Below, piece by piece: positions 33,565-46,912 of a stretch of DNA of 64,000 bases. Each line of letters starts with the position of its first letter. Positions within the stretch are counted from its first letter, which is position 1. The notes under the pieces were generated by a model. That model was not told the origin of the DNA. It made no database searches and saw nothing but the letters and a program-made list of their open reading frames with translations. The position numbers and the translations under genes were made by a program. The stretch spans positions 1 to 64,000 of the forward strand of contig NZ_LPWG01000012.1 in assembly GCF_001723285.1 (NCBI RefSeq), written 5' to 3'. This stretch comes from Methyloceanibacter methanicus. Lineage in GTDB: Bacteria; Pseudomonadota; Alphaproteobacteria; Rhizobiales; Methyloligellaceae.

Positions 33565-33640
<76 letters not shown>

Positions 33641-33943
33641 CTCTTGTGGGGAACACACGTCCCCAGGAAACCGTAGCAGCGATACGTCGTCCCCTTGGGC
33701 GAACGCTGATTGCTACTGTCGCAGCGGGGCACTTCTGCTGCCGTCATCCGGGCAGGCCTTGTGTTTCGTGCGCGATATGCGCCCTTCGCGCCAAAGCCAG
33801 AGGCTCGACCCACTCAGAAAGCTCATTCCACCTTCTCTATGTCTCCAGGCTCACGATTTCCGTCCAGCGCGATCCGTGCGGCGGCGTAGAGGCGCAAAGG
33901 TGCGATCATTGTGGTCGGTGCTCAGCAACCCCGCTGTCCTTGT
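33641..33943. other. Region downstream of tRNA-Lys without a recognisable gene
   Basis: About 300 bp. Short open frames here resemble no family and look like noise. GC content appears lower than in the mre cluster. I see no integrase gene or repeat of the tRNA 3' end, although this is the junction with the accessory region. Confidence 0.4.
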
Positions 33944-34126
33944 CTAAGACAGAAGGTAGTAGAGCAGCGGCAACCAAACTACGGTTGTCGTTATGATGCC
34001 CTTGACGGTCTGATAGCCAATCCAAAGCCAGAAGACTGTGGACGCCGTGCGCGTAACGCTGTCGCCGGCAGCGCCTCTGTTCGAGAGAGACTTCGCGCGG
34101 ATGGATACGCCAAATGGCCAGTGCAT
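33944..34126 (-). CDS. Small one-helix membrane protein, last gene of the bd-like oxidase operon
   Basis: 60 residues: a polar basic N-terminus (~28 residues), then one long hydrophobic segment containing FWLWIGYQTVKGIITTTVVW and PLLYYLL at the C-terminus. It starts 30 bp after the PCu(A)C gene on the same strand. I do not recognise the family. Size, topology and position recall the small accessory subunits of cytochrome bd oxidases (CydX type), but there is no clear sequence match. It could also be spurious. Confidence 0.45.
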   Translation of the reverse strand: MHWPFGVSIRAKSLSNRGAAGDSVTRTASTVFWLWIGYQTVKGIITTTVVWLPLLYYLLS

Positions 34127-34156
34127 ACGGATGCTCCGTTGGTCGAAAGCTACGTG

Positions 34157-34672
34157 TCAGTGATGGTTGTGAGCACCGTCGGTCGACGCTGCTCCCAATC
34201 CCATAACGCTGAAGATCACGTTCACAGCACCCGCATTCTCGAAAGTAAGAACACCAGAGAACTGATCCCCCTCCGTAAGCGGTTGCTTCAGATCCATCAG
34301 CATCAGGTGATAGCCCCCGGGCTTGAGGAGGACTTCGCCGTCCGCCGGCACCATCAGCCCATCCGGTATCCGGCGCATTTTCATCACGCCGCCTTCCATG
34401 GTCATCTCATGGATCTCGGTCTTGCCAGCCACATCGGTGGTCGCCGATACCAGTCGATCGTCCTGTTCGGAGCGGTTCCTTATCGTAGCGAAACCGACGC
34501 CGACTTTGACGCCACCTGGCGTGGCGCGCGACCACGCATTCTCAACCGAGATTGGCGCCGCGCCTGAGTGAGAAAATGCATAGAGTGGAAATATCGAGAG
34601 CACGCATAGTTGCACCAGAAAGGCCAGACGCCACGCCGGCTTGCGCTCTCGATGTCTACTTGGTCGAGCCAT
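34157..34672 (-). CDS. PCu(A)C-type periplasmic copper chaperone
   Basis: 171 residues. A membrane anchor or signal peptide (LAFLVQLCVLSIFPLYAFSHSGA) precedes a cupredoxin-like domain. The copper motif is H-E-M (EIHEMTMEGGVMKMRRIP) with the downstream partner in GGYHLMLMDLK, matching the H(M)X10MX21HXM pattern. The C-terminus ends AHNHH. These proteins deliver Cu(I) to the CuA or CuB site of respiratory oxidases. Here the gene sits in an operon for a cytochrome bd-like complex, which is unusual because ordinary bd oxidases contain no copper. Confidence 0.9.
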   Translation of the reverse strand: MARPSRHRERKPAWRLAFLVQLCVLSIFPLYAFSHSGAAPISVENAWSRATPGGVKVGVGFATIRNRSEQDDRLVSATTDVAGKTEIHEMTMEGGVMKMRRIPDGLMVPADGEVLLKPGGYHLMLMDLKQPLTEGDQFSGVLTFENAGAVNVIFSVMGLGAASTDGAHNHH

Positions 34673-34703
34673 GGTTTCACTCCCTTGTGGGCTTCCTCAG
34701 TTT

Positions 34704-35038
34704 CTATTTTTCACGACGGGGCAAGCCGCTGAAATACGCGGCTATGTTGGCGATGTCCCTGTCCGATAAAGGCTTGGCCATGGACGTCATAGTCGGATCT
34801 TGGCGAACTTGGCCGCCCTTGTAGGCAGTCAGAGACCTTTCAAGGTATACGCGATCCTGCCCCGCGAGATGCGGAACGCCGGGCGCCTTGGAGACGCCGT
34901 TCTGGCCATGGCACGCAAAGCAAACAGCCGCGCGCTTTTGCCCTGCACCGCGTCGGCCATTTGCGCCTTGGCGGAACCTGAAACGAGCGCCATCGCGGCA
35001 ATCACAAGTCCGGTTTTCAGGTGTGTGGTGAAATTCAT
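34704..35038 (-). CDS. Small periplasmic c-type cytochrome (one frameshift)
   Basis: Start at ATG 35038 (MNFTTHLKTGLVIAAMALVSGSAKA, a signal peptide) behind GGGAGG. Near 34934 one base is missing. The start frame reads SARLFALRAMA, while the next frame reads AVCFACHGQNGVS, which holds the heme c motif CFACH. The rest (GVPHLAGQDRVYLERSLTAYKGGQVRQDPTMTSMAKPLSDRDIANIAAYF) has the axial Met region of class I cytochromes c. Restored length is 111 residues. It probably passes electrons between periplasmic donors and the neighbouring membrane complex. Confidence 0.85.
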
Positions 35039-35052
35039 CAGACTGCCTCCCA

Positions 35053-36276
35053 TTAATAGGCGAATGTGTTTTCGATGAAGATTGCGATGCCGTAGAGAAA
35101 GAACACAGCGATCCAAACAGCCAGCACCGCCACCGCTCCTGTTCCCATTGCGGCGATCGAGCGATCGGCCTGATAGACGCCTTGCACGCGGCCGGCCCGG
35201 TATAGAAGCGACAGATAAAACCCTCCGACAAGGCCTCCGACGCCGGCAAGCGTGAGGAAGAACAGAGCCAAGGACGGCCAATCCGCGTTTATTTTCTGGT
35301 CCACGATCGAGTATCCGTAGGCACTGAGGTAAGTGGCGCGGACAACCTCCCGCCAAATTGCCAGGAGCAACAGAACGACCAATCCTCCGCACAACAGCAG
35401 ATAGCCGTGCAGCTTGTCCGCGAAGAACGTCACTTCGAACCACAGCACGAGGAGAGCCGCACCCACGGCCCATCCGCCCGGCTGTACGATGAGATTGGAA
35501 TCGGATGGATTGTCGAACTGCCACCAGACGAACAGAATGAGAGCGAACAAGCTGCCGCTGGCGCCGAGTTTCCGGCCCAACGGCCTCACAAAGCCGAGAT
35601 AGCCCTCCGGCAGGTCCGGACGGCTTTTCAGATAGTCGTCATACGCGAGAAGGTAGAGACCGATCGCCGGGACCGAGAGCGATATGATGAAGAAATAGCG
35701 CGGCCACTGTATGGCATGGAGATAAGCGCCGCGGGTATCGACGACCCCATCGGGCGCATACCAGTCCATCCATTGTCCGGGCAGCAGAGCCTGATAGGAC
35801 AATGCATGCATGATCAGCCCATCGAGCAAGAAGAGCAGAAGGGCAATTACCGCGAATATGCCGATATGGCGCTTGGCGCCCTCCTTGTTGCTGAAGTAGA
35901 AGGCAAACCACAGGCAATAAGCGATAATCAGTGTAAAAATGAACCCTATGGCCCACCCCGCCGACAGCACGTTCGAGGCGTACCATTGTGGGTCGTAGAT
36001 GACCTGGGTAAAGAGAAGTGGCGCCACGCCAAGTACGATCAATAGCGATACGCCAACCTTTGCGACCTTGGTCATGGCAATTGACAGACGCGTCCAATAT
36101 GGACCCGTGTCACGCCGCCAAAACGCGTAGATGGCGAGACTCGCCGCGCCCAGCGTGAGAGTCACAAAGGCAATATGAAAGACCCAGGTCACGATCATCA
36201 AGATCCGGAACAGCTCCGGATGAGCGGGAATCCCGGCGGGATCCCGCATGACATTCATTACGGTTCCAATATCCAT
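35053..36276 (-). CDS. Second membrane subunit of a cytochrome bd-like oxidase
   Basis: 407 residues with about ten hydrophobic segments. It starts 2 bp after the upstream gene's stop, behind GAGGGG. Candidate heme-ligand histidines lie in membrane segments (LMIVTWVFHIAFVTLTLG, LLDGLIMHALSYQALL and YLHAIQWPRYFFIISL). The N-terminal segments resemble the CydA-like partner gene, so the two may be distant paralogues. It is not a normal CydB by eye. Function inferred from context: membrane part of a terminal oxidase or other b-type cytochrome complex. Confidence 0.65.
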   Translation of the reverse strand: MDIGTVMNVMRDPAGIPAHPELFRILMIVTWVFHIAFVTLTLGAASLAIYAFWRRDTGPYWTRLSIAMTKVAKVGVSLLIVLGVAPLLFTQVIYDPQWYASNVLSAGWAIGFIFTLIIAYCLWFAFYFSNKEGAKRHIGIFAVIALLLFLLDGLIMHALSYQALLPGQWMDWYAPDGVVDTRGAYLHAIQWPRYFFIISLSVPAIGLYLLAYDDYLKSRPDLPEGYLGFVRPLGRKLGASGSLFALILFVWWQFDNPSDSNLIVQPGGWAVGAALLVLWFEVTFFADKLHGYLLLCGGLVVLLLLAIWREVVRATYLSAYGYSIVDQKINADWPSLALFFLTLAGVGGLVGGFYLSLLYRAGRVQGVYQADRSIAAMGTGAVAVLAVWIAVFFLYGIAIFIENTFAY

Positions 36277-36278
36277 TG

Positions 36279-37685
36279 CTATTTCCCCTCGCGCTCTATC
36301 AATGCCGTGATGGGCGCCGATGTGTGGCTTGCAGCACTTTTCTCAAGCGTGCCTGCGTTCACCGACGCCAAATAGGCGGCGATAGCATCGACTTCTTGGT
36401 CCGGTAGATCGATTCGCGGCATGTAGGGCGCCGCTCCATGCTTGAGCGGACCGCGAAGGAAGGCTGCAATCATGTCCTTGTCCGGCGAGCCGTAGAGCTT
36501 GTCGGGGATGCTGCGAAGCGGCGCTCCAGGTTCCAACGCATGGCAGTTCGCGCAGGCGATCTTCGCTAGAAGCTCTCCCACTTCGAGCCGGTTGTCGTCC
36601 GTGACTTCACGGAGCCGGTCGGGGATGAAGGGATGCAGCTTGAGAAGCCCCTTTTCGGCAATGAGATCCACCTCCCCACGGATGGACTTGCCGGGTACGT
36701 CGCGGGCAATGACTTGGTTGGAGTAGATGTATTGCCCTGCCACATACGGCTTGCGCATGCTCTCGCGCATCCGCTCCTCGGGCCAGACACCCAGCACCGC
36801 AATCGCCAGAAACATCGGGACCGCGATATAGAGTTTGAGCCGGTGCGGCTTCCACCACACGAAGACGAGATACGCCGTGGTCGCCACGAAGATGCCGATC
36901 ATCGTGTTTGCATAGGCCGGGATCAGGTAGGCCTGCAGCATGACTTTGGCGTTCGTGGGCAGGGTTTGCAGGTAGTACAAAAACATCATCACCGAGAAGA
37001 GCCCGCCAAGCAGACCAATCGGCGCGATAACCCGGATGACGCCCCGCTTCAGATCTTCGTCCTTGATCCCCGCTGCGACCATAAAGCCTACGACAGCGGC
37101 CATGACGAACATGGAGCCGGTGCGGACTCCAAGATGGGCGAAGAAGTTGATGTTGTAGAAGGCGTCGTTGGTGGACCCCGTCAGGTACCAGCCTTCATTT
37201 CCCGGCCACATCATGAAGGAGAGGATGCCGACAATGAGCAGCATCGTGGCCCATGAAGCCAAGGCAAACGACCAAGTGAGCTTGAGATGGGTAAGCCGGT
37301 CGACCTTGCCGATAAGATAGACGAGCGCGTAGACGCCAATGACCTCGACGGTGAAGTAGACCCATTCGGCCGCCCATACCCAGACGAAATTGTGAATGAG
37401 CCCGCTTACGCCGCGCGGGCTTGCGACGGTGATCGCGTACCAGATGCCCGGACCGGTGATGGAGCCGATGATGTACGAGAAAACGAGTAGAAACACCCCG
37501 TAGCGTTTGATGAATCCCATGATCTCGGGTTGATCGTCGCGGTAGGCTTTCGTCTCCAAGACCGCGAACAGAAACGCGGCGCCGACCGACGTATGAGACG
37601 CAACCACGTGGATCACGCCAATGATGCCCATGACCCACGCGGAGCCGATATAGGGCACATAGAAGGTTGGATACATGCCAAGCAT
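36279..37685 (-). CDS. CydA-like membrane cytochrome fused to a C-terminal cytochrome c domain
   Basis: 468 residues from ATG 37685 (MLGMYPTFYVPYIGSAWVMG). About nine transmembrane segments carry candidate heme histidines, with His26 and His31 in the first helix (VIHVVASHTSVG), plus LIHNFVWVWAAEWVYFTVEV and NFFAHLGVRTGSMF. The SITGPGIWYAI motif resembles the CydA core. After about residue 360 a class I cytochrome c domain follows with C378-A-N-C381-H382 and a PYMPRIDLP axial-Met region. Ordinary CydA lacks heme c. Related bd-like oxidases are known from Nitrospira and some other autotrophs or methylotrophs (from memory). First gene of a five-gene operon. Confidence 0.7.
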   Translation of the reverse strand: MLGMYPTFYVPYIGSAWVMGIIGVIHVVASHTSVGAAFLFAVLETKAYRDDQPEIMGFIKRYGVFLLVFSYIIGSITGPGIWYAITVASPRGVSGLIHNFVWVWAAEWVYFTVEVIGVYALVYLIGKVDRLTHLKLTWSFALASWATMLLIVGILSFMMWPGNEGWYLTGSTNDAFYNINFFAHLGVRTGSMFVMAAVVGFMVAAGIKDEDLKRGVIRVIAPIGLLGGLFSVMMFLYYLQTLPTNAKVMLQAYLIPAYANTMIGIFVATTAYLVFVWWKPHRLKLYIAVPMFLAIAVLGVWPEERMRESMRKPYVAGQYIYSNQVIARDVPGKSIRGEVDLIAEKGLLKLHPFIPDRLREVTDDNRLEVGELLAKIACANCHALEPGAPLRSIPDKLYGSPDKDMIAAFLRGPLKHGAAPYMPRIDLPDQEVDAIAAYLASVNAGTLEKSAASHTSAPITALIEREGK

Positions 37686-37966
37686 GCTTGTTTTTCCCCA
37701 GCTAAGAACTTGAGTTCGGTTGTGATTCGGTCTCGCACCGCAGTGCTGCCGCTCCGACTGCGCCAAGCCACTCGCGATGCCGTGCTTGCAACCCAGGAGG
37801 ACGGCCCAAGAGGACAGCCCTGAAGGGCAGACCGATGGGTCAGCTCAAGAGCCGCGCCCAAGCGGTCAAACCAAGGGAACTTGGAGCAAGCGATGCTGCG
37901 GCATGCCGGGGCACGAGCGTGTGCCGGCAGCCAAACACGATTGATTTGTGGAGACGCAGAAGCCGA

Positions 37967-38386
37967 CTAGGTCCGAGGTGGACCGCGGGATTGTCCGTCG
38001 TAGGGGAAGTCGCTGTTCTCGGGAGCCCGGGCGAGGGCCCAATAGCGGACCGTGGTGGCCACGGACGATCGCAGGGCAATGGGGATCGCTGGAACCGACC
38101 CGAGGCCCGGGGCGGCCGTCAACCGGCAGGCATCGCAGACCTTGGGGCACTTATCCGTCGCCGGGGTGGATGTATCCGACGATCCAGCGGTACGGCCGCT
38201 ACGACAGATGACGGGCACCGTTCCGTCCGGCAACGCGTAGACGACGAGATCATTGGGGGAAGAGGGCGCCGCGACCGTACGGTGTGAGAACGGCAGCAGA
38301 AGCATCCCCGCCGCATACGCGATGGCAACGGCGACTCGGATCCATGACGTCTTCCGCACTCCCAACATGGCGGGACCATAAGCCAC
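37967..38386 (-). CDS. Secreted Cys-containing protein, DUF2946-like
   Basis: 139 residues (or 133 from the second Met at 38368). A signal peptide or anchor (VAVAIAYAAGMLLLPFSH) is followed by a segment with ALPDGTVPVICRSG and KCPKVCDACRL, the pattern of DUF2946 proteins with paired cysteines before the C-terminal region. DUF2946 genes often sit near copper or TonB functions. It is upstream of and co-oriented with the bd-like oxidase operon, with a 280-bp gap that should hold the operon promoter. Family call is tentative. Confidence 0.5.
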   Translation of the reverse strand: MAYGPAMLGVRKTSWIRVAVAIAYAAGMLLLPFSHRTVAAPSSPNDLVVYALPDGTVPVICRSGRTAGSSDTSTPATDKCPKVCDACRLTAAPGLGSVPAIPIALRSSVATTVRYWALARAPENSDFPYDGQSRGPPRT

Positions 38387-38992
38387 GTTGGCGCCTCCGC
38401 GCGCTGCGACAAATTACGTCAGCAATGAGAATTGGGAAGACTTCCTGTTGCGGCGCAGAAATATCTTCTGGATCCAATGCGGCGATGCAGCACCCAACCG
38501 TTCGTTTGCATTCGCCATCGCTTTTTTCGATATCGACGGCCTGCCTCCAGCGGAGAGCTGGGCACCACTCGATCCGAGCGTCGACTGAGCCCTATCCGAC
38601 CGTCTCACCGTAGGCGTTTCCGACACAGGGACGTATACGGACGACGTTTCCGATAACATGTCCGCTTTGGGTCATGAGCAGGCATCTGGCCGGCCGAACG
38701 GTCGGGAGGTATCGCGCGGAAACCGGATGGGATCATCGTTGTCCCTCGCGATCGCTAGGGGATGGGACCGGCGAAACCGCTTCGAGAGCTTGGTTCCACT
38801 TTGCCAGCGCGTCGAGCAAGCGGTTCGCCATTTCTCCGCTTGGCTCCGCCAAGCCTCAACATAGTCGACGGGTAGGGGCCGGACGTCTTCGCCAACGCTC
38901 GGCGAACATGTCGGCTCTCATCTGTATTTCGGACAAGGATTGCGCACTGAGCCTGAGCTAGCTATCGGCCTATGCAGAATGTCTCGTGAGCC
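38387..38992. other. Region without a recognisable gene
   Basis: About 600 bp. Short frames on both strands (for example 38388-38588 and 38674-38961) show no family features or ribosome-binding sites. This may be a degraded remnant or spacer in the accessory block. Confidence 0.4.
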
Positions 38993-39358
38993 CTAGTCTG
39001 AATCAGGCGACATCTTGCCACCACGCTTGGGGCGGTGTTGTTTGAGAACGTCTTGCAGAGCGTCGAGGCGTTCGGACCAAAATCCTTGATAGGCGTCCAG
39101 CCACTCATGGGCCTCACTGAGGGCATCCGCGTTCAACCGACAAATATGTTCGCGACCATTGACCTCGCGGTCTACGATTCCGGCTCTTTCCAGAGCCTGA
39201 ACGTGCTTGGATACGGCCGCAAGGGACATGTCGAATTTCGGTGCAAGCTCGGTGATCCTGTAAGGTTTCTTGGACAGCATCCTGACGATGTTCCGCCGCG
39301 AAACGTTCGCCAGCGCATGGAACACGTCGTCCAATCGGTTGCGGTGATACTGAACCAT
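38993..39358 (-). CDS. ArsR-family transcriptional regulator
   Basis: 121 residues with a winged helix-turn-helix: DVFHALANVSRRNIVRMLSKKPYRITELAPKFDMSLAAVSKHVQALERAGIVDREVNGREHICRL. It lacks the metal-binding ELCVCDL cysteine box, so it is of the non-metal type that usually accompanies SRPBCC (AHSA1) genes. The start lies 27 bp after the stop of the SRPBCC fusion gene on the same strand. The 24-bp palindrome at 40735-40758 is a candidate operator. Confidence 0.88.
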   Translation of the reverse strand: MVQYHRNRLDDVFHALANVSRRNIVRMLSKKPYRITELAPKFDMSLAAVSKHVQALERAGIVDREVNGREHICRLNADALSEAHEWLDAYQGFWSERLDALQDVLKQHRPKRGGKMSPDSD

Positions 39359-39385
39359 CGCCTTATGCGCCTGCCGATCGATATC

Positions 39386-40510
39386 CTAGCTGTCTCGGTT
39401 CATTGCTTTTTCTCCATCCGTGTCGGTGCCCGCCGCGTCGGCGTCCGACTCAGGGAGAGCGTCGGCGACGGCAAGCAAACGCTTCCAGTCTGGGGTCGGC
39501 GAGTTGCTGGCCTCGCCTGGAATAAACGCCGATTCCTCAACGAGCTGCATCTTGTGCACATACCGCGGGCAGTTGGAAAAGACGGACTCGACGTGGACAC
39601 GCACGATCATCTGTGCGCCCGGGTACCGTTCGATCAAGCTGTCCGCCGTTGAGACTTCCGCTCGTCCCAAGACGCGAAGGCGAGCCTGCCGTTCAAAGTC
39701 GATGAAAAGCAGTCCGACCTTGGATGTCTCGCTGATGTTGCCCGTCGTGAGGTGCATGCCGTTGCCGTTGTAGTCGGGGAAGGCCAATGTTTGTTCGTCG
39801 ACGACCGTCACGAAGCCGCGTGCGCCTCCCTTGTACGAACAGTTGGGCTGCCCGTAAGGATCGTTGCTCGCAATGAAGAACATATTCTGTCTGGCTATGA
39901 AGGCAGCGTCGGCCGCTTTCAATTCATCATGAACTGACAATGAGCCGAGGCGGTCTGCAAGTCGGCGCGTGCCGAAATGATCCTGTATCTTTCTGTGCCC
40001 TTCGCTGAAGAAATCCTTCGGGGTTTCGTCTAGCGCGGGCTTGTCTCGAATCGACTGACTCGCGGCCTCGAGTTTCGCAAGGCATGACTTCCAGTTGGCC
40101 CTGTTGAGTCCCGCAGCCTCTCGGCTGGGGTTCTTCTCGTGCGTGAGGGTAAGCTCTGTCAGCATCGGGCTGATCTCGCGGAGGTCTGCGGTTACAAGCG
40201 TTGCCTTTGTGCGCAATGCCGCGACCGGCCCATCGTAGTTCCACGAAAGTACGATGCGCTCGCCATCTACGAGCTCAAGATATGTGCCAGAAATCGAATA
40301 GGGCCGGTTGTCGGAGTCGAGCGCTTCGACGCGGTACCTGCCACCCTCCCGGATGTCCGCTTCAACGTCCGTGACCACATTCTCGCCAGGTGCAAACCAG
40401 CGAACAAGCAGCGCCGGCTGCGTCCATGCCGCAAACACCATCTGGCGGGACGACTCGATCTTACGTACGAGCGTAACCGCGACTGCGGGATTTTGCTTCC
40501 TAGTTGGCAC
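39386..40510 (-). CDS. Fusion of an SRPBCC (AHSA1-type) domain with a pyridoxamine-phosphate-oxidase-like split barrel
   Basis: Start most likely GTG 40510, six bases after GGGAG; open frame extends to 40576. Residues ~8-145 are an AHSA1/SRPBCC domain (VRKIESSRQMVFAAWTQPALLVRWFAP, DIREGGRYRVE, SWNYDGP). Residues ~165-350 are a flavin-binding split barrel (HDELKAADAAFIARQNMFFIASNDPYGQPNCSYKGGARGFV, ISETSKVGLLFIDF, RLRVLGRAEV). The C-terminus is acidic and low complexity. The two domains are normally separate proteins. Ligand and reaction unknown. It precedes the ArsR gene, a common SRPBCC-ArsR pairing with the order reversed. Confidence 0.8.
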   Translation of the reverse strand: MPTRKQNPAVAVTLVRKIESSRQMVFAAWTQPALLVRWFAPGENVVTDVEADIREGGRYRVEALDSDNRPYSISGTYLELVDGERIVLSWNYDGPVAALRTKATLVTADLREISPMLTELTLTHEKNPSREAAGLNRANWKSCLAKLEAASQSIRDKPALDETPKDFFSEGHRKIQDHFGTRRLADRLGSLSVHDELKAADAAFIARQNMFFIASNDPYGQPNCSYKGGARGFVTVVDEQTLAFPDYNGNGMHLTTGNISETSKVGLLFIDFERQARLRVLGRAEVSTADSLIERYPGAQMIVRVHVESVFSNCPRYVHKMQLVEESAFIPGEASNSPTPDWKRLLAVADALPESDADAAGTDTDGEKAMNRDS

Positions 40511-40728
40511 CACACACTCCCGCCAAATGACGCCCATTGGGCCGTGAGCCGTTCCTCTTTCGGCACGCCAAATCATGCCGCCTGCAGGGTACTCGCCAGC
40601 ACCTTAAACGTTCAACCGCTAAATATAATATCTCGTTGCGGCGGCAGTCTGTCGAACTGCAATGAGGCAAAATTACATTCAAACACAGTCAGTTGTGGCA
40701 AGATTCCTGGGAATCCTGCCGATACCCA

Positions 40729-40758
40729 TTGACATTATTCAACTGATCAGTTGAATAA
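40729..40758 (+). promoter_or_regulatory. Promoter with a 24-bp perfect palindromic operator upstream of xoxF
   Basis: TTGACA (40729-40734), a perfect -35 box, is followed 16 bp later by TTGAAT (40751-40756). The space between is filled by a perfect 24-bp palindrome at 40735-40758, with half-site TTATTCAACT around GATC. A regulator bound there would block RNA polymerase. It lies 120 bp before the xoxF start and 225 bp from the start of the divergent SRPBCC-ArsR operon. Confidence 0.75.
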
Positions 40759-40877
40759 GTACGTGAGCTTGGTCGTGGGTCTGTTGAAACAGGTCGGGCT
40801 GCCGGGCTCCGAAAGATTGGGTCAGAAACAGCGCTATTCGGCTCAATGAACTGAGTAGCTAGGGAAGGAACGAGCTA

Positions 40878-42767
40878 ATGAGACTGCAGTACGGCATTCT
40901 GGCCGGAACCATCGTCGCGGTGACGATGGCGTTGGCAGGCCAGGCATCGGCATTGGATACGGACAAGGAGCAGCTAGCTCGCATGGCCGATCCCGATCAA
41001 TGGCCTGCTCCCGGTCGTGATTTCGCTCTGACGCGCCATAGCACGTTGTCGGACATTAACACGAACAATGTGAACAAGATGCAGATGATCTGGCTCCAGA
41101 GCCAGGGTGCCCTCAGAGGGCAAGAAGGTCAGCCGCTTGTGATCAAGGACGTCGGCGGCAAGACCATGCTGTTCATGATCTCTGGTTGCCCGACGACTGC
41201 ACAGTGCAACATCGTGCAGGCTCTGGATCTGACGGATCCCGACAATCCGAAGCAGATTTGGAATTACGTCAAGAAGACCGACCGTGACGAGTCCGCCATT
41301 CCGCGCGCTTGCTGCGACACCGTCAACCGTGGCGGCTCCTATGCCGATGGCAAGTTCGTGTTCGGCACGCTCGACGGATACTTGATCGCTTTGGAAGCGA
41401 CGACGGGCAAGGAGCTCTGGGTCGTCAAATACGCCTATCCCGACCATGGCGAGACCATGACCCCGGCGCCGTTGATCGCCGACAACAAAGTGTTCATGGG
41501 CTTTGGTGGGAACGAGTTCGCCGCGCGTGGCCGTGTTGCCGCCTTTGATCTAAACGACGGCTCCGAGGTCTGGGTGTGCCACAGCACGGGTTCCGACAAG
41601 GACGTGTGCCTGACGCCTGAGACCAACAAGGCCAACCCCCAATTCGGTCAGGCTGGTGAGGATCTTGGCATCAAGACCTTCCCCGGTGAGGACTACAAGA
41701 TTGGCGGCGGCACGGCGTGGGGTTGGTATTCCTACGATCCTGAGCTGAAGATGGTCTACTACTCGACCGGCAACCCCGGCCTGTGGAGCCCGCAATATCG
41801 TTGCCCCGATAAGACCCATGAGGAGTGCAACACTGGTGCGTTCGACAACAAATGGTCCATGACCATTTTTGGCCGCAAGATCGAAAACGGCGAGGCTGTC
41901 TTCGCTTATCAGATGACGCCCTTCGACCAGTGGGACTATGACGGCATCAACGAGAACATTCTTTCCGACATGGATATCGACGGAAAGAAGGTGAAGGCTC
42001 TCACTCACTTTGACCGTAACGGTTTTGCCTATGTGCTCGACCGCACCGACGGCTCCCTTCTGCGCGCCACGAAGTACGTGACCGTGGACTGGGCCGAGAA
42101 GGTCGACATGAAGACCGGCCGTCCGATCAAGGTTCGTGACCACTCGCCGCTCGAAGTTGGCCGCAACGTCTCTGCCTGCCCGTCTGCTATGGGTGGCAAG
42201 GACCAGCAGCCTGGTTCGGTCGATCCGAAGGAGCCGAACATCTTCTACATGCCCACCAACAACTGGTGCATGGAGGATGAGCCTCAGGAGCGCACGCACA
42301 CGAACCAGGGCACGGTCTATGTGTTCGCGAACGTGTACATGTATCCTGAGAAGCCTGGCACCACCGGCAAGATCAAGAAGTACGACGTCCTGACCGGCAA
42401 GACGGTCTGGGAGATCCCGGATCCGTATCCGAACTGGGGTGGTACGATGGTCACCGACGGTGGTCTGATGTTCTACGGCTCGCTTGGTGGCGACTTCCGC
42501 GCGGTCGACCGGAGTTCCGGTAAGGTCCTGTGGAGCCGCAAGCTGGGTTCGGGCATCATCGGCAACCCGGTCACGTACAAGGTCGGTGGCAAGCAGTATG
42601 TCGGCGTGTACTCCGGCATCGGCGGGTGGATCGGTCTTCCGGTCACCGCGGGTCTCGACCTGAACGACAAGTTCGGTGCCATCGGCTCCACCGCCATGAC
42701 CAAGGCCGCCGGCCTGCAGTTCATCCCGCAGGGCGGTACGCTGAACGTCTTTAGAGTCATGGAATAG
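40878..42767 (+). CDS. xoxF: Lanthanide-type PQQ methanol dehydrogenase (XoxF)
   Basis: 629 residues with a signal peptide (GILAGTIVAVTMALAGQASA). An eight-bladed quinoprotein: vicinal Cys145-Cys146 (RACCDTVNRGG), catalytic Asp353 and the extra Asp355 in QWDYDGINE. That second Asp marks lanthanide-dependent XoxF; calcium MxaF has Ala there. PQQ contacts include GGGTAWGWYSYD and THFDRNGFAYVLDR. It oxidises methanol in the periplasm. A Cys-containing insertion (YRCPDKTHEECNTGAFDNKW) distinguishes it from XoxF5 of Methylobacterium as I remember it, so the clade may be XoxF1 or another. No xoxG or xoxJ adjoins it. Base composition is slightly less GC-rich than in the flanks, consistent with high expression. 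Confidence 0.92.
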   Translation: MRLQYGILAGTIVAVTMALAGQASALDTDKEQLARMADPDQWPAPGRDFALTRHSTLSDINTNNVNKMQMIWLQSQGALRGQEGQPLVIKDVGGKTMLFMISGCPTTAQCNIVQALDLTDPDNPKQIWNYVKKTDRDESAIPRACCDTVNRGGSYADGKFVFGTLDGYLIALEATTGKELWVVKYAYPDHGETMTPAPLIADNKVFMGFGGNEFAARGRVAAFDLNDGSEVWVCHSTGSDKDVCLTPETNKANPQFGQAGEDLGIKTFPGEDYKIGGGTAWGWYSYDPELKMVYYSTGNPGLWSPQYRCPDKTHEECNTGAFDNKWSMTIFGRKIENGEAVFAYQMTPFDQWDYDGINENILSDMDIDGKKVKALTHFDRNGFAYVLDRTDGSLLRATKYVTVDWAEKVDMKTGRPIKVRDHSPLEVGRNVSACPSAMGGKDQQPGSVDPKEPNIFYMPTNNWCMEDEPQERTHTNQGTVYVFANVYMYPEKPGTTGKIKKYDVLTGKTVWEIPDPYPNWGGTMVTDGGLMFYGSLGGDFRAVDRSSGKVLWSRKLGSGIIGNPVTYKVGGKQYVGVYSGIGGWIGLPVTAGLDLNDKFGAIGSTAMTKAAGLQFIPQGGTLNVFRVME

Positions 42768-43005
42768 CTTCACCACGCATGGAGTAGCTTCTCCACCAGT
42801 TGCGCTCGGTGTTCACGAGGTACCGCGCGCAGCTGGCTCCCTGGCGCCCGGTGCCATACGGTATCCGGGCGCTTTCAATTCTCGGGCCGCCGTTGTGCTC
42901 CGCGGCCACGGCAATCCCGAGAGACTGACTGAGGCTCGTGCTAAAAAGGCCGCGGGCGAGGTCACGCCCATCCAAAAGCGGACATTTGCTCTTATGCTCT
43001 ACGGC
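42768..43005. other. Spacer between xoxF and the arylsulfatase gene
   Basis: No gene recognised in the ~240 bp before the terminator. A 91-codon frame on the minus strand (42757-43032) runs through the terminator hairpin and the xoxF end and is unlikely to be real. Confidence 0.4.
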
Positions 43006-43050
43006 GAAAAAAGAAGGACCGCGCCGTGACAAGCAGCGCGGTCTTGTTGT
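43006..43050 (-). terminator. Intrinsic terminator between the convergent arylsulfatase and xoxF genes
   Basis: GACCGCGC (43017-43024) and GCGCGGTC (43036-43043) form an 8-bp stem. On the minus strand it is followed by CTTCTTTTTT, a good terminator for the sulfatase gene. On the plus strand TTGTTGTG follows, so it may act weakly for xoxF too. Confidence 0.85.
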
Positions 43051-43067
43051 GTTAGTTCGGAAGGACC

Positions 43068-44831
43068 TTACGGATTGGCCCGTCCGAGGCCCCGCTCTTC
43101 GAACACCTTTTGCATCGCCTTACGCGCTTCGGGTGCCAGGTTGTACATCGGCGGATTGTTGCTCAAGAAGCCGATCTTGAACTGCGGCGGATACTTCATG
43201 AGTTCCTTCATGTAGTCGGCGGCAGCACTCATCACCGGCACCATCATCGGGATGTGACGCACGCCGATGCTCACGTCCTCCTGCGGGCTGGCGTAGAGGT
43301 TGAACATGATCGCGCCGCCCGTGTCCGTGAAGAGCGAGCCGCTGAAGCCGCCCCAGTCGCCCTTCTGAACGACGCTGTTCTGCAACTCGCCCGTCCAGAT
43401 GTACTTGAACTCGTCCACCCGGATGCCGGCGAAATACTGGTTCAAGGTATAGGGGCGGCTACGCCGGTTCGACTGCCCATCGTCCGCGATCAGGAAAGAG
43501 GCCTGATCCACGCCGTCGACGTACCGGTCCTTGGGGAACTTGTCCGCAAGCTGCGCACCGGGGACACCCGCAAGATGAAGCACCGTCGGCAGGATGTCCG
43601 CGTAGTCGAACAGCCCATCCGACTTGCGCGGCTCGATCATGCCTTTCCAATAGGCGAAGGCCGACGAGCGCACGCCACCTTCCCACGCCGAACCCTTGCA
43701 GCCACGGAACATCGTGCGCCCGTGCGGCGGGACTTCGCATTCGGGACCGTTGTCGCCGCCAAGGAAGAGAACCAGCGTGTTGTCGAGCTTTCCGGTTTCC
43801 TCCAGCTTTTTCATGATCGCACCGAAGATGTCGTCCATCTCCACCATGCAATCGCTGAACACCGTCCGCGCCGCGGATTTCCCCGCATATTCGTCCGGAG
43901 GATAGTTGTCGAAGTGGCATCCGCGCGTAGCGTGGTAGAGAAGGAATGGCTGGTCGTTGTCCTTTCTGCCGTCGAGGAAATCGAGGCTGACCTTGAGCCA
44001 GTGCTGGTCGAGGTCCTTGATGTAGTTGAGATCGATCAGCCTGCCGCTTTCGCAGTTGTCCTTATCGGCCGGCGTGCAATGCACCTCGTGGTGATTGAAG
44101 GCGTCCTCTTGCATCATCTTGAAGCGTGACGGAGACAGCGCGACCTCGGGATTGAAGTAGATGTCGCGCCATTCGGTGTACATGTCCGAGACGCCGAGGA
44201 AGCCGAGATAATCGTCGTAGCCGACGTTCTGCGGCATCGAACCCTTGTTCTCGCCCATATGCCACTTGCCCACGCCTTGGGTGAAGTAACCCTGCTCCTT
44301 GAGCAGCATCGGCATAGTGATGGCGCCGTCGAGACCACCTGACTCGCCATACATCGGCGGGCGCAGGATGCCGTGGTGCAGCGGGTTCTGACCCGTATGG
44401 ATGGTCGAACGGGTCGGCGAGCAGGACGGCGTCGAGTAGGCCGAGGTCAGGAACAGGCCTTCGTTGGCGTATTTATCCATGCTCGGCGTCGCGTTGCCGA
44501 CCACGACGCCCCCGCCGGTGAAGCCGGGGTCCGAAAAGCCCGTGTCATCCATCAGGAAAATGAAGATGTTGGGCTTCTTGCCGAGTTTCGAGAGCTTCTC
44601 GGCCGCCGCCTTGTCTTGCTCCGGGCGCTGAAGCACCGGGTACATATTATCGGCGGGTTTGACATCCTTGAGGTGGATGGTGTCCCAGGGATGGTCGAAG
44701 CCCGGGGCCGTGGTGGGGCCCGTGCTCGCACCGCGGATGTTCTCAGCGTCATTGTCCTGCGCGTGAGCAATGCCACCGCAGGCCATCAGCGCGGCAAGGG
44801 CCAATGCGCCGCTACATTTCCATAAGTACAT
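43068..44831 (-). CDS. Periplasmic arylsulfatase (type I, formylglycine-dependent)
   Basis: 587 residues from ATG 44831 behind GGAGGAG, with a signal peptide (MYLWKCSGALALAALMACGGIAHA). The N-terminal metal site reads PNIFIFLMDDTGFSDPGFTGG. The modification motif is C137-S-P-T-R in TPSCSPTRSTIHTGQNPLHHG, followed by GKWHMGE and LGGDNGPE. It hydrolyses sulfate esters, or possibly phosphonate or other esters, in the periplasm. Sulfatase activity needs a formylglycine-generating enzyme encoded elsewhere. The divergent AraC gene is the likely regulator. Confidence 0.92.
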   Translation of the reverse strand: MYLWKCSGALALAALMACGGIAHAQDNDAENIRGASTGPTTAPGFDHPWDTIHLKDVKPADNMYPVLQRPEQDKAAAEKLSKLGKKPNIFIFLMDDTGFSDPGFTGGGVVVGNATPSMDKYANEGLFLTSAYSTPSCSPTRSTIHTGQNPLHHGILRPPMYGESGGLDGAITMPMLLKEQGYFTQGVGKWHMGENKGSMPQNVGYDDYLGFLGVSDMYTEWRDIYFNPEVALSPSRFKMMQEDAFNHHEVHCTPADKDNCESGRLIDLNYIKDLDQHWLKVSLDFLDGRKDNDQPFLLYHATRGCHFDNYPPDEYAGKSAARTVFSDCMVEMDDIFGAIMKKLEETGKLDNTLVLFLGGDNGPECEVPPHGRTMFRGCKGSAWEGGVRSSAFAYWKGMIEPRKSDGLFDYADILPTVLHLAGVPGAQLADKFPKDRYVDGVDQASFLIADDGQSNRRSRPYTLNQYFAGIRVDEFKYIWTGELQNSVVQKGDWGGFSGSLFTDTGGAIMFNLYASPQEDVSIGVRHIPMMVPVMSAAADYMKELMKYPPQFKIGFLSNNPPMYNLAPEARKAMQKVFEERGLGRANP

Positions 44832-45030
44832 TGTATCTCCTCCAAAAATTACGCGATGGGCCATGCGCACGATCCCCCCGGACCCCGCTTGCTTCCGGCT
44901 GATCCCCTCGTCGATTGCGCCGCCCAGGCAGCTGCCGCCTGTCATTGGCCCTGGTGAAGGCTTCGCTCACCTACGACGCAACGTGTGCTAGAGTACGGAT
45001 CTGACGATTTGCTGATATCCACATTTCGAC

Positions 45031-46014
45031 ATGGCGCCACTTGCTTCTCAGAAACTGGCTGTTGATCTCATTGGTTTGGACTTCTTCGATCCAGAGGCGA
45101 TGGAGGAGGCCGTCCAAGGGAGCCAATTCGAGCATTCTCTAGATGTGCCTGGCCAGTTCCACGGGACGGTGGTGCAGGCGCGAAATGAGCGCACACGGCT
45201 CGATTGGGGCCGATACGATCTTCCTGTAATTGCCCGAGGGCCGTTTGCGCCGGATCGCATGACATTTGGTGCCCTGCTGAACGAGCAAGGGAATTCACTC
45301 GTCAATGGCCTTGTCTTGCCGCCGGGGAGCATGCTGCTTTTTAGGGAGGGTGAGGAACTCAATACGCGCCTGTCGCCAAACTCGAATTGGCTGACAATCC
45401 AGCTTGATCGTCAAAGCTTGGCACAGATTGGTCTTGAGCCTTCCAACCGAGGTGTTGACGCTTGGAGACCCGACGTTGAGAGCGACAGGGTGCTGAGGAA
45501 AAAAATTCTCAAGAACGCGCGTTTCATCGAGTCGACAACCCATCGCGCCCGTGAGGCGGGCTTGCTCGCTGCAAACCAGTCCATAAATGATATCGAGGAC
45601 GACGTGCTTGTCGTGTTGACCCGGCTCCTAGGAGCCAGACGGGTCTTGCCGGTTATCGCATCGCATCAAGGCAAAGAGGAAGCTCTTCGGATCGTCCGAG
45701 ATGCGATCAATTACATGGAAGCAAACATCGACAGTCCAATTACGATCGCGGAGATTTGCGCGGCGCTCCCGACCAACATCAAGTCGCTGGAAAGAGCCTT
45801 TCTGCATACCTATGGCATAGGGCCAAAGCAGTATCTCTCGAGATTTAGACTGTCGAATTTGCGTCGTATGCTGTTGCGCGCATCCGGCGGAGAGAGAGTC
45901 TTGACCGAGGCTTACTTGGCCTGCGGCCTTCCTCACTTCAGCCGGGCAGCCCAGGGATACAAACACCTTTTTGGCGAGCTGCCGTCGCTGACACTGTCCC
46001 GGGCGCAGTCCTGA
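45031..46014 (+). CDS. AraC-family transcriptional regulator
   Basis: 327 residues. A ~200-residue N-terminal sensor part (DFFDPEAMEEAVQGSQFEHSLDVPGQFHGTVVQARNERTRLDWGRYDLPVIARG) is followed by a C-terminal AraC DNA-binding domain (AINYMEANIDSPITIAEICAALPTNIKSLERAFLHTYGIGPKQYLSRFRLSNLRRMLL and LPHFSRAAQGYKHLFGELPS). It is divergent from the sulfatase gene with ~200 bp between starts and probably controls it. The inducer is unknown. Confidence 0.9.
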   Translation: MAPLASQKLAVDLIGLDFFDPEAMEEAVQGSQFEHSLDVPGQFHGTVVQARNERTRLDWGRYDLPVIARGPFAPDRMTFGALLNEQGNSLVNGLVLPPGSMLLFREGEELNTRLSPNSNWLTIQLDRQSLAQIGLEPSNRGVDAWRPDVESDRVLRKKILKNARFIESTTHRAREAGLLAANQSINDIEDDVLVVLTRLLGARRVLPVIASHQGKEEALRIVRDAINYMEANIDSPITIAEICAALPTNIKSLERAFLHTYGIGPKQYLSRFRLSNLRRMLLRASGGERVLTEAYLACGLPHFSRAAQGYKHLFGELPSLTLSRAQS

Positions 46015-46640: not shown

Positions 46641-46912
46641 TGGCTGTCGGTGCCCCCCTGTGCGCCTGCATCACCCAGCATGCATGGATCTGCGCCCTGA
46701 TGGCGTTCGCGTTCGCGGCACTGCGGCGGCGCTCAAGGCTGGCGCTGCCGTGTGCTGCTCCATGCTGCGGCCCGTCCCATCATCGGGACATTGGCTTGGC
46801 CCGTCAATGAGCTGTGCGCGGTGATATCCACTCCCCTGGTGTACACCGCGAGGCAGCGCCGCGTCCCCGGCAAAACCTTGTGCGGCCACCGCTTCTCGGT
46901 CAGAGTGCCGGC

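Follow-up and report, generated by a model that had tools for sequence, protein, structure and literature searches.

Heme-copper cytochrome c oxidases need copper, and copper can limit aerobic life. Within the cytochrome bd superfamily, a family termed OR-C is reportedly marked by heme c, as Murali, Gennis, and Hemp are said to have described in 2021. MCA1187 of Methylococcus capsulatus has eight helices, a C-terminal cytochrome c domain, and no quinol loop, and the heme b558 ligands are not conserved in it (PMC4831470). It rose 28.3-fold without copper, was detected in membranes of copper-limited cells, and is possibly complexed with MCA1185 (a diheme cytochrome c) and MCA1186; copper-independent “cytochrome cbd” oxidases were postulated in the same work (PMC4831470). 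Later papers placed members of the bd superfamily in qOR, OR-C, and OR-N, and the OR-N CydAA' of Nitrospira and Nitrospinota combines two paralogous bd-superfamily subunits proposed to oxidize cytochrome c (PMC10839748, PMC12342949). When copper is limiting, Bordetella depends for growth on its copper-independent bd oxidase (PMC12914433). Here, we describe an operon from a 64,000-nucleotide (nt) stretch of Methyloceanibacter methanicus (NZ_LPWG01000012.1, positions 1 to 64,000; this whole stretch is called the window) that encodes two membrane proteins, A and B, a soluble cytochrome c, the copper chaperone PCu(A)C, and a small one-helix protein behind a candidate copper-sensing leader. We consider it probable that the operon specifies an oxidoreductase of the bd superfamily that transfers electrons from cytochrome c to O2 with heme and without copper, and that it is produced under copper scarcity.

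Subunit A belongs, as a distant member, to the cytochrome bd superfamily; it has no quinol-site motif and carries a fused heme-c domain. In the window, A reaches 17.5 bits with PF01654, short of the 26.2 cut-off, and 22 of its 57 aligned relatives match this family at E≤0.001 (best, 6.7e-11); the heme-c domain scores just under its Pfam cut-offs. When A was compared with the PDB by phmmer and by profile, no CydA match was obtained, just cytochromes c and unrelated weak ones. The AlphaFold2 model (mean predicted local distance difference test [pLDDT], 80.7; predicted template-modeling score [pTM], 0.78) shows eight long helices followed by the heme-c domain. All 10 PDB chains matched to it by Foldseek at E≤0.001 come from bd oxidases, with template-modeling (TM) scores of 0.38 to 0.63, and we take these chains to be CydA.

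To place A among its relatives, we used 84 loci, namely, the window, 3 plasmid loci, and the best 80 of at least 509 relatives obtained from 588 candidate stretches in a scan of genome contigs. Three of the four plasmid matches were fetched (a second Thermus plasmid was left out), and three loci were removed before counting: L001, which is the window itself; L002, from the same genome as L061; and L003, a lone cytochrome c match. The CxxCH motif is present in all 84 A proteins. Across the 57 aligned relatives, the heme-c residues C378, C381, and H382 (CxxCH at residues 378 to 382) are invariant, as are H26, H98, E107, E114, R188, E304, R307, and E308; H31 is kept in 56 and Met422 in 55. In a profile alignment with four canonical CydA proteins, H26 pairs with the helix-1 His of CydA (E 9e-4; probability, 22.9%). 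The GRQPW motif, found in 4/4 of those canonical proteins, occurs in 0/57 aligned rows of A, and the model contains no long quinol loop between predicted membrane helices. The conserved b558 His is likewise missing, as the nearest position (H184) is His in just 30/57 relatives.

Judged from these alignments, A has lost the quinol site, and probably b558 too, and has gained a heme c; on these grounds, we argue that cytochrome c is the likely electron donor. A donor other than quinol had also been suggested by a sequence-only reading of this DNA, and the bd-like character of A, its heme c, and the missing quinol-site motif bear that suggestion out. A different function for A and B, as an electron-transfer or nitric-oxide-handling complex and not an O2 reductase, would find some footing in the weak Foldseek matches of A to alternative complex III subunits and in the possible non-oxidase role given to a related bd-like protein of nitrite oxidizers (PMC3578206). 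We regard it as extremely unlikely, given that A keeps the helix-1 His and the conserved Glu and that bd oxidases are the best structural matches.

Subunit B adjoins A in 83 of the 84 loci (81 by script, with L068 and L006 resolved separately), and in the one remaining locus, L086, the contig breaks off within A. The window protein has no Pfam match, and its 52 aligned relatives give scattered weak ones only. Profile comparison indicates that A and B are paralogs, since hhalign aligned B with the profile of A over 261 columns at 94.5% probability (E 8.1e-8). The model of B (pLDDT, 91.2; pTM, 0.88) has two PDB matches at E≤0.001, each of them chain A of a bd oxidase; CydB-type chains follow slightly below. 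An assignment of B to CydB was considered and rejected: there is no Pfam match, the hhalign match to A is strong versus a nonsignificant E of 0.31 against canonical CydA, and in the structural comparison, CydA-type chains rank best and CydB-type chains next. Because H34, H157, E310, and R313 are each kept in 52/52 relatives, together with an RExxR motif like that of A, B may hold heme as well.

Based on its motif and position, the open reading frame (ORF) upstream of A is probably a leader resembling CruR, a known copper sensor that switches genes on when copper runs out. In Bordetella, the CruR operon is read in the absence of copper; when copper is present, it is sensed by the CxxC of the nascent peptide, the ribosome no longer stalls at RAPP, and transcription is terminated by Rho, the spacing between the two motifs being 45 residues (PMC9426467). 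The synteny reported for CruR covers transporters, PepSY, ScoC, PcuAC, YcnI, CopC, MbnPH, and AhpC, with bd-like oxidases not named in the accessible text, and a cytochrome oxidase biogenesis operon of Bradyrhizobium is headed by a cruR homolog (PMC9426467). In the portions of the literature that our survey covered, we found no CruR leader on a bd-like oxidase. The window leader starts with a hydrophobic, signal-peptide-like N-terminus (judged by eye) and contains CDAC, 46 further residues, RGPP, two residues, and the stop, which is the CxxC/R[AG]PP spacing of CruR.

The distribution of this motif ties the leader to one part of the oxidase family. In a quick maximum-likelihood tree of A, built without bootstrap and with very long branches for L005 and L006, the window falls in a clade of 18 loci with a Shimodaira-Hasegawa-like approximate likelihood ratio test (SH-aLRT) value of 99. 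We searched ORFs of 60 to 240 amino acids (aa) for CxxC, 44 to 48 residues, and R[AG]PP within 8 residues of the stop; this strict motif was formulated after PMC9426467 and after sight of the window leader, and the sole supporting locus outside the 84 is L100 (genome G1142), which has two leaders ahead of A. Nineteen of 4,333 ORFs from the 84 loci carried the motif, against a mean of 0.095 and a maximum of 2 in 200 shuffles. All 19 lie inside the window clade, and 13 of them are the same-strand ORF directly upstream of A (window, L007 to L014, L017, L018, L021, and L061). The clade leaders share a signal-peptide-like start (by eye), CxxC, a spacing of 45 to 47 residues, and R[AG]PP with 2 to 7 residues to the stop; those of L099 and L096, being identical to the L007 and L010 leaders, were not counted as independent.

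A leader thus precedes A in 13/18 window-clade loci versus 0/66 others (Fisher test, 1.4e-11, treating loci as independent and ignoring shared descent). Five of the 66 have less than 600 nt upstream of A, and among loci with at least that much the counts are 13/18 versus 0/61 (3e-11). On the tree, 0/500 label shuffles were as clustered as the observed labels, a result that speaks solely to whether the leader label is clustered. The clade loci that have no leader are L004, L015, L016, L019, and L020; L015 and L020 have less than 1 kb upstream of A, and in L020 that space holds PCu(A)C. Pfam DUF2946 matched 10/10 beta-type copies at E≤0.001, 8 of them directly upstream of A, and weakly matched 4/9 alpha-type leaders (E≤0.1; best, 9.5e-5). 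The base composition of the leader-A gaps has a mild excess of C over G, with no clear Rho-site signature. Two CruR-like leaders stand in series in L100, L007, and L010, and in L100 a DUF2244 membrane protein lies between them.

The leader could also act in the opposite sense. CutF belongs to the same DUF2946-like group, has CxxxC, and activates its downstream gene with copper (PMC9973294); were the window leader to behave in this way, copper would induce the operon, and the oxidase would cover for heme-copper enzymes or cytochrome assembly poisoned by excess copper. We consider this quite improbable, as the 13 leaders have the CxxC, the 45- to 47-residue spacing, and the R[AG]PP of CruR and not the CxxxC of CutF, and the long gaps before A also fit CruR. 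In addition, MCA1187 rises without copper (PMC4831470), and one member of the window clade, the Methylosinus plasmid locus L004, has methanobactin genes ∼3.3 kb from B. Control by copper starvation is read here from that neighbor and from the CruR-type leader in 13 of the 18 clade loci.

The sequence-only reading had also connected the operon with copper through its PCu(A)C gene, had raised a copper center in the enzyme, and had named conserved pairing with the chaperone as a point on which this should be judged. Searching the fetched DNA by similarity to the members already found, a method that may miss divergent copies and that met some short contigs, we detected PCu(A)C in just 5/84 loci: one copy belongs to the window operon, that of L020 sits immediately upstream of A, and those of L018, L021, and L022 are 4.4 to 5.7 kb away. 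It lies within 1 kb of the genes of the pair in the window and L020 only. On that point, the chaperone is not a conserved partner of the pair. The connection with copper itself is real but is better explained by starvation control, and the proposed copper center is not supported. That reading had known of no biochemical description of such a gene set; MCA1187 provides the same anatomy together with its membrane location and copper response, and no enzyme assay is reported in the accessible part of that paper (PMC4831470). Overall, its observation is partly confirmed and its interpretation partly supported.

A copper site in the membrane enzyme, loaded by PCu(A)C, deserves weighing in its own right. 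H26 and H31 in helix 1 (57/57 and 56/57) and H98 (57/57) could form a His cluster, a copper site has been suggested for one Nitrospira bd-like protein (PMC6606698), and PCu(A)C does lie in the operon. The same His residues are nevertheless conserved in the clades of sulfur oxidizers and of Campylobacterota, in which we found no leader motif and no PCu(A)C, and the H98 position is Arg in the Agrobacterium homolog. Few loci have the chaperone nearby, and if the CruR leader works as it does in Bordetella, available copper would turn the operon off. We therefore consider a copper-loaded enzyme very improbable. As an account of why PCu(A)C is present, a copper center was set aside as the leading explanation because of the 5/84 count and because the leader tracks the clade.

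Other parts of the tree have other neighbors. In a separate clade of 27, a flavocytochrome c sulfide dehydrogenase cluster lies nearby in 24/27 loci (one member checked by Pfam), and a mostly Campylobacterota branch of 28 loci has neither the leader nor the sulfide dehydrogenase label. A simple scan placed a cytochrome c ORF after B in 13/17 testable window-clade loci; of the four misses, the window has the frame break, L004 has a c-type cytochrome by annotation, and L014 and L017 each have a CxxCH ORF that spans this site but fell outside the limits of the scan. No cytochrome c ORF was found straight after B in the 26 testable loci of the Campylobacterota branch. Taken together, the few PCu(A)C neighbors and the sulfide dehydrogenase of the sister clade lead us to conclude that the copper link of the oxidase is clade-specific.

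The enzyme might instead serve sulfide oxidation in the main, as a terminal oxidase that tolerates sulfide, with the copper genes incidental. The 24 of 27 sister-clade loci speak for this, as do the sigma-54 activators present in 10 loci, of which 7 have cysteine in an N-terminal stretch. For the operon in the window it is unlikely, since the dehydrogenase cluster occurs in 0/18 window-clade loci, where the leader is the repeated partner. The seven cysteine-bearing activators (L059, L063, L069, L074, L079, L082, and L083) lie near oxidase and sulfide dehydrogenase genes and presumably resemble the FisR-type sulfide sensor. On plasmids of Methylosinus and Agrobacterium, the oxidase genes are closely followed by RegB/RegA-like (ActSR/PrrBA) genes of the redox two-component kind (L004:11044-12940 and L006:8751-10539), assigned by their best NCBIfam models at scores below the curated cut-offs. 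A Zur-like regulator upstream of A (L022:7087-7548; best model, below cut-off) and a CobW-domain ORF near A (L024:11596-13053) possibly indicate a zinc context.

In the window, the order of transcription is leader, A, B, cytochrome c, PCu(A)C, and the one-helix protein (Table 1). The sequence-only reading had listed the last five as co-oriented genes at positions 37685 to 33944, and the reading frames confirm these coordinates; the leader and a frame break in the cytochrome c gene had escaped it. Its CydA-like protein fused to a cytochrome c proved genuine, if distant, and the second multi-helix subunit (starting 2 nt downstream of A), the copper chaperone, and the one-helix protein are all as it described. 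The soluble cytochrome c gene is also present, although the assembly shows it with a disrupted frame: a one-base break in a short run of one base puts CxxCH (34922 to 34908) out of frame with the start and signal peptide (35038 onward). The PF00034 match (E 6.8e-8) falls on the heme-bearing part alone; the Methyloligella homolog (L061) is an intact gene.

Table 1. Features of the oxidase operon, by window position
Feature	Coordinates	Strand	Basis
CruR/DUF2946-type leader (upstream ORF [uORF]), 133 aa (probable)	37967..38368	-	Strict motif, position
Leader-A gap, 281 nt	37686..37966	-	
Subunit A, bd-superfamily membrane protein with C-terminal heme-c domain, 468 aa	36279..37685	-	Model, profiles
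Subunit B, predicted paralog of A, CydA/CydB-like fold, multi-helix, 407 aa	35053..36276	-	Model, hhalign
Soluble mono-heme cytochrome c gene, frame-broken near 34940	34704..35038	-	Pfam PF00034
PCu(A)C periplasmic copper chaperone	34157..34672	-	PF04314 (E 2.1e-41)
One-helix protein, 60 aa	33944..34126	-	tblastn homologs

The PCu(A)C protein of the operon is one of two PF04314 matches in the genome. For the 60-aa protein, a Pfam scan gave no match, and NCBIfam gave no usable name for it or for A, B, or PCu(A)C. By tblastn, homologs of the 60-aa protein occur just after B in L006 (76% over 25 aa; E 1e-10) and ∼0.6 kb upstream of A in L007 (69% over 29 aa; E 3e-10), and it is a possible small accessory subunit. 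The genome also encodes three COX1-family (PF00115) proteins and one canonical CydA; the operon is not among the three PF00115 matches, and A and B have no COX1 match at E≤1.

The operon is patchily distributed. Counting its own genome each time, it was found in 2/30 genomes of the family, 3/397 of the order, 2/385 of the class (at E≤1e-40), and 1/398 of the phylum, and it occurs in 3/103 genomes of another carrier's family. It lies in a low-GC stretch (33641 to 46000; 0.587 versus 0.648 in the rest of the window) that begins at a tRNA-Lys gene (33565 to 33640) and is a probable genomic island. A repeat of the tRNA end that might mark an attachment site amounts to only a 16-base match with 2 mismatches at 46876, too weak to claim. 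Based on the patchy spread, the low GC, and the adjoining tRNA-Lys, we conclude that the operon was probably acquired by transfer. The same stretch contains a gene for a pyrroloquinoline quinone (PQQ)-dependent alcohol dehydrogenase (40878 to 42767; TIGR03075, above cut-off), a possible feeder of cytochrome c.

These features, namely the broken cytochrome c frame, the low GC beside tRNA-Lys, and the presence in 2/30 family genomes, could also mean that the window copy is a decaying part of a mobile island that yields no working complex. We find this improbable: the leader, A, B, and PCu(A)C retain open frames and their conserved residues, the break falls in a short homopolymer and could be an artifact of the assembly, and another cytochrome c could serve as donor.

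We return to a copper-independent oxidase made in copper scarcity, which explains more of the evidence than a copper-containing one would. In this proposal, the soluble cytochrome c would hand electrons to the fused heme-c domain of A, from which they would reach a bd-type heme site in the membrane part of A, where O2 would be reduced, with B as the second subunit of an A:A' heterodimer. Without copper, the ribosome would stall at RGPP of the leader and the operon would be read through; with copper, sensed by the nascent peptide, transcription would end before A. PCu(A)C would scavenge remaining copper for the heme-copper oxidases of the genome rather than metallate this oxidase. We also lean, with somewhat less assurance, toward a respiratory switch that spares copper, in which a nascent-peptide sensor would directly control a terminal oxidase and a single mRNA would join this copper sensor, a copper-free bd-superfamily heterodimer oxidase, a cytochrome c, and a copper scavenger serving the enzymes that the oxidase replaces, the oxidase being wired by clade to a copper leader, to sulfide dehydrogenase, or to RegBA-like signals.

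Several observations weigh against this proposal. The window leader has no match to Pfam DUF2946, and profiles of the alpha and beta DUF2946 leaders align over just 13 residues around CxxC, so that the kinship of the window copy is argued from its motif and spacing, where it lies, and its alpha relatives. The leader motif was not found in the 66 loci outside the window clade, a distant alphaproteobacterial homolog (L098) also has no leader, and the related CutF works the other way, with copper switching its target on (PMC9973294). Sulfide genes form the context in the sister clade, few loci have PCu(A)C nearby, and the soluble cytochrome c is frame-broken in this assembly. A matches canonical CydA weakly by profile, the likeness to MCA1187 is by published description and not by sequence, and the canonical CydA of the same genome could already serve copper-poor respiration.

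If the proposal is correct, some bacteria can respire through cytochrome c even when copper is absent, with a leader peptide that directly reads copper in control. The proposed oxidase family would gain an expression prediction at the level of a motif, a defined partner subunit, and named hosts, including Hyphomicrobium zavarzinii, Beijerinckia mobilis, and Methyloligella sp. GL2, and the clades suggest that a single oxidase came under distinct environmental cues. The family itself was proposed earlier; to it we add the leader, the pairing of paralogs, and a wiring that differs by clade.

Compared with known systems, the oxidase probably belongs with “cytochrome cbd” and OR-C. It shares with OR-C its place in the bd superfamily and the lack of a quinol site, and heme c is reportedly the mark of that family. 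The fold and the helix-1 heme-ligand His are those of canonical CydAB; unlike CydA, A has no GRQPW, conserved b558 His, or long quinol loop and does have heme c, and unlike the canonical pair, B is the apparent paralog of A. A paralogous second subunit is also found in OR-N CydAA', whose context is largely nitrite oxidation and for which a fused heme c and a CruR leader are unmentioned in the accessible texts. MCA1185-MCA1187 is alike in its eight helices, bd-family membership, C-terminal CxxCH, missing quinol loop, and lost b558 ligands, as well as in the neighboring cytochrome c, third gene, proposed complex, and copper-starvation context; it differs in that its cytochrome partner is a diheme c4, and neither a CruR leader nor PCu(A)C is named for it in the accessible text (PMC4831470). 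The leader, finally, resembles Bordetella pertussis CruR (BP2923) in its CxxC, its spacing of 45 to 46 residues, its R[AG]PP near the stop, its first place in the operon, and the long gap to the next gene, while having RGPP instead of RAPP and preceding an oxidase instead of a copper transporter (PMC9426467).

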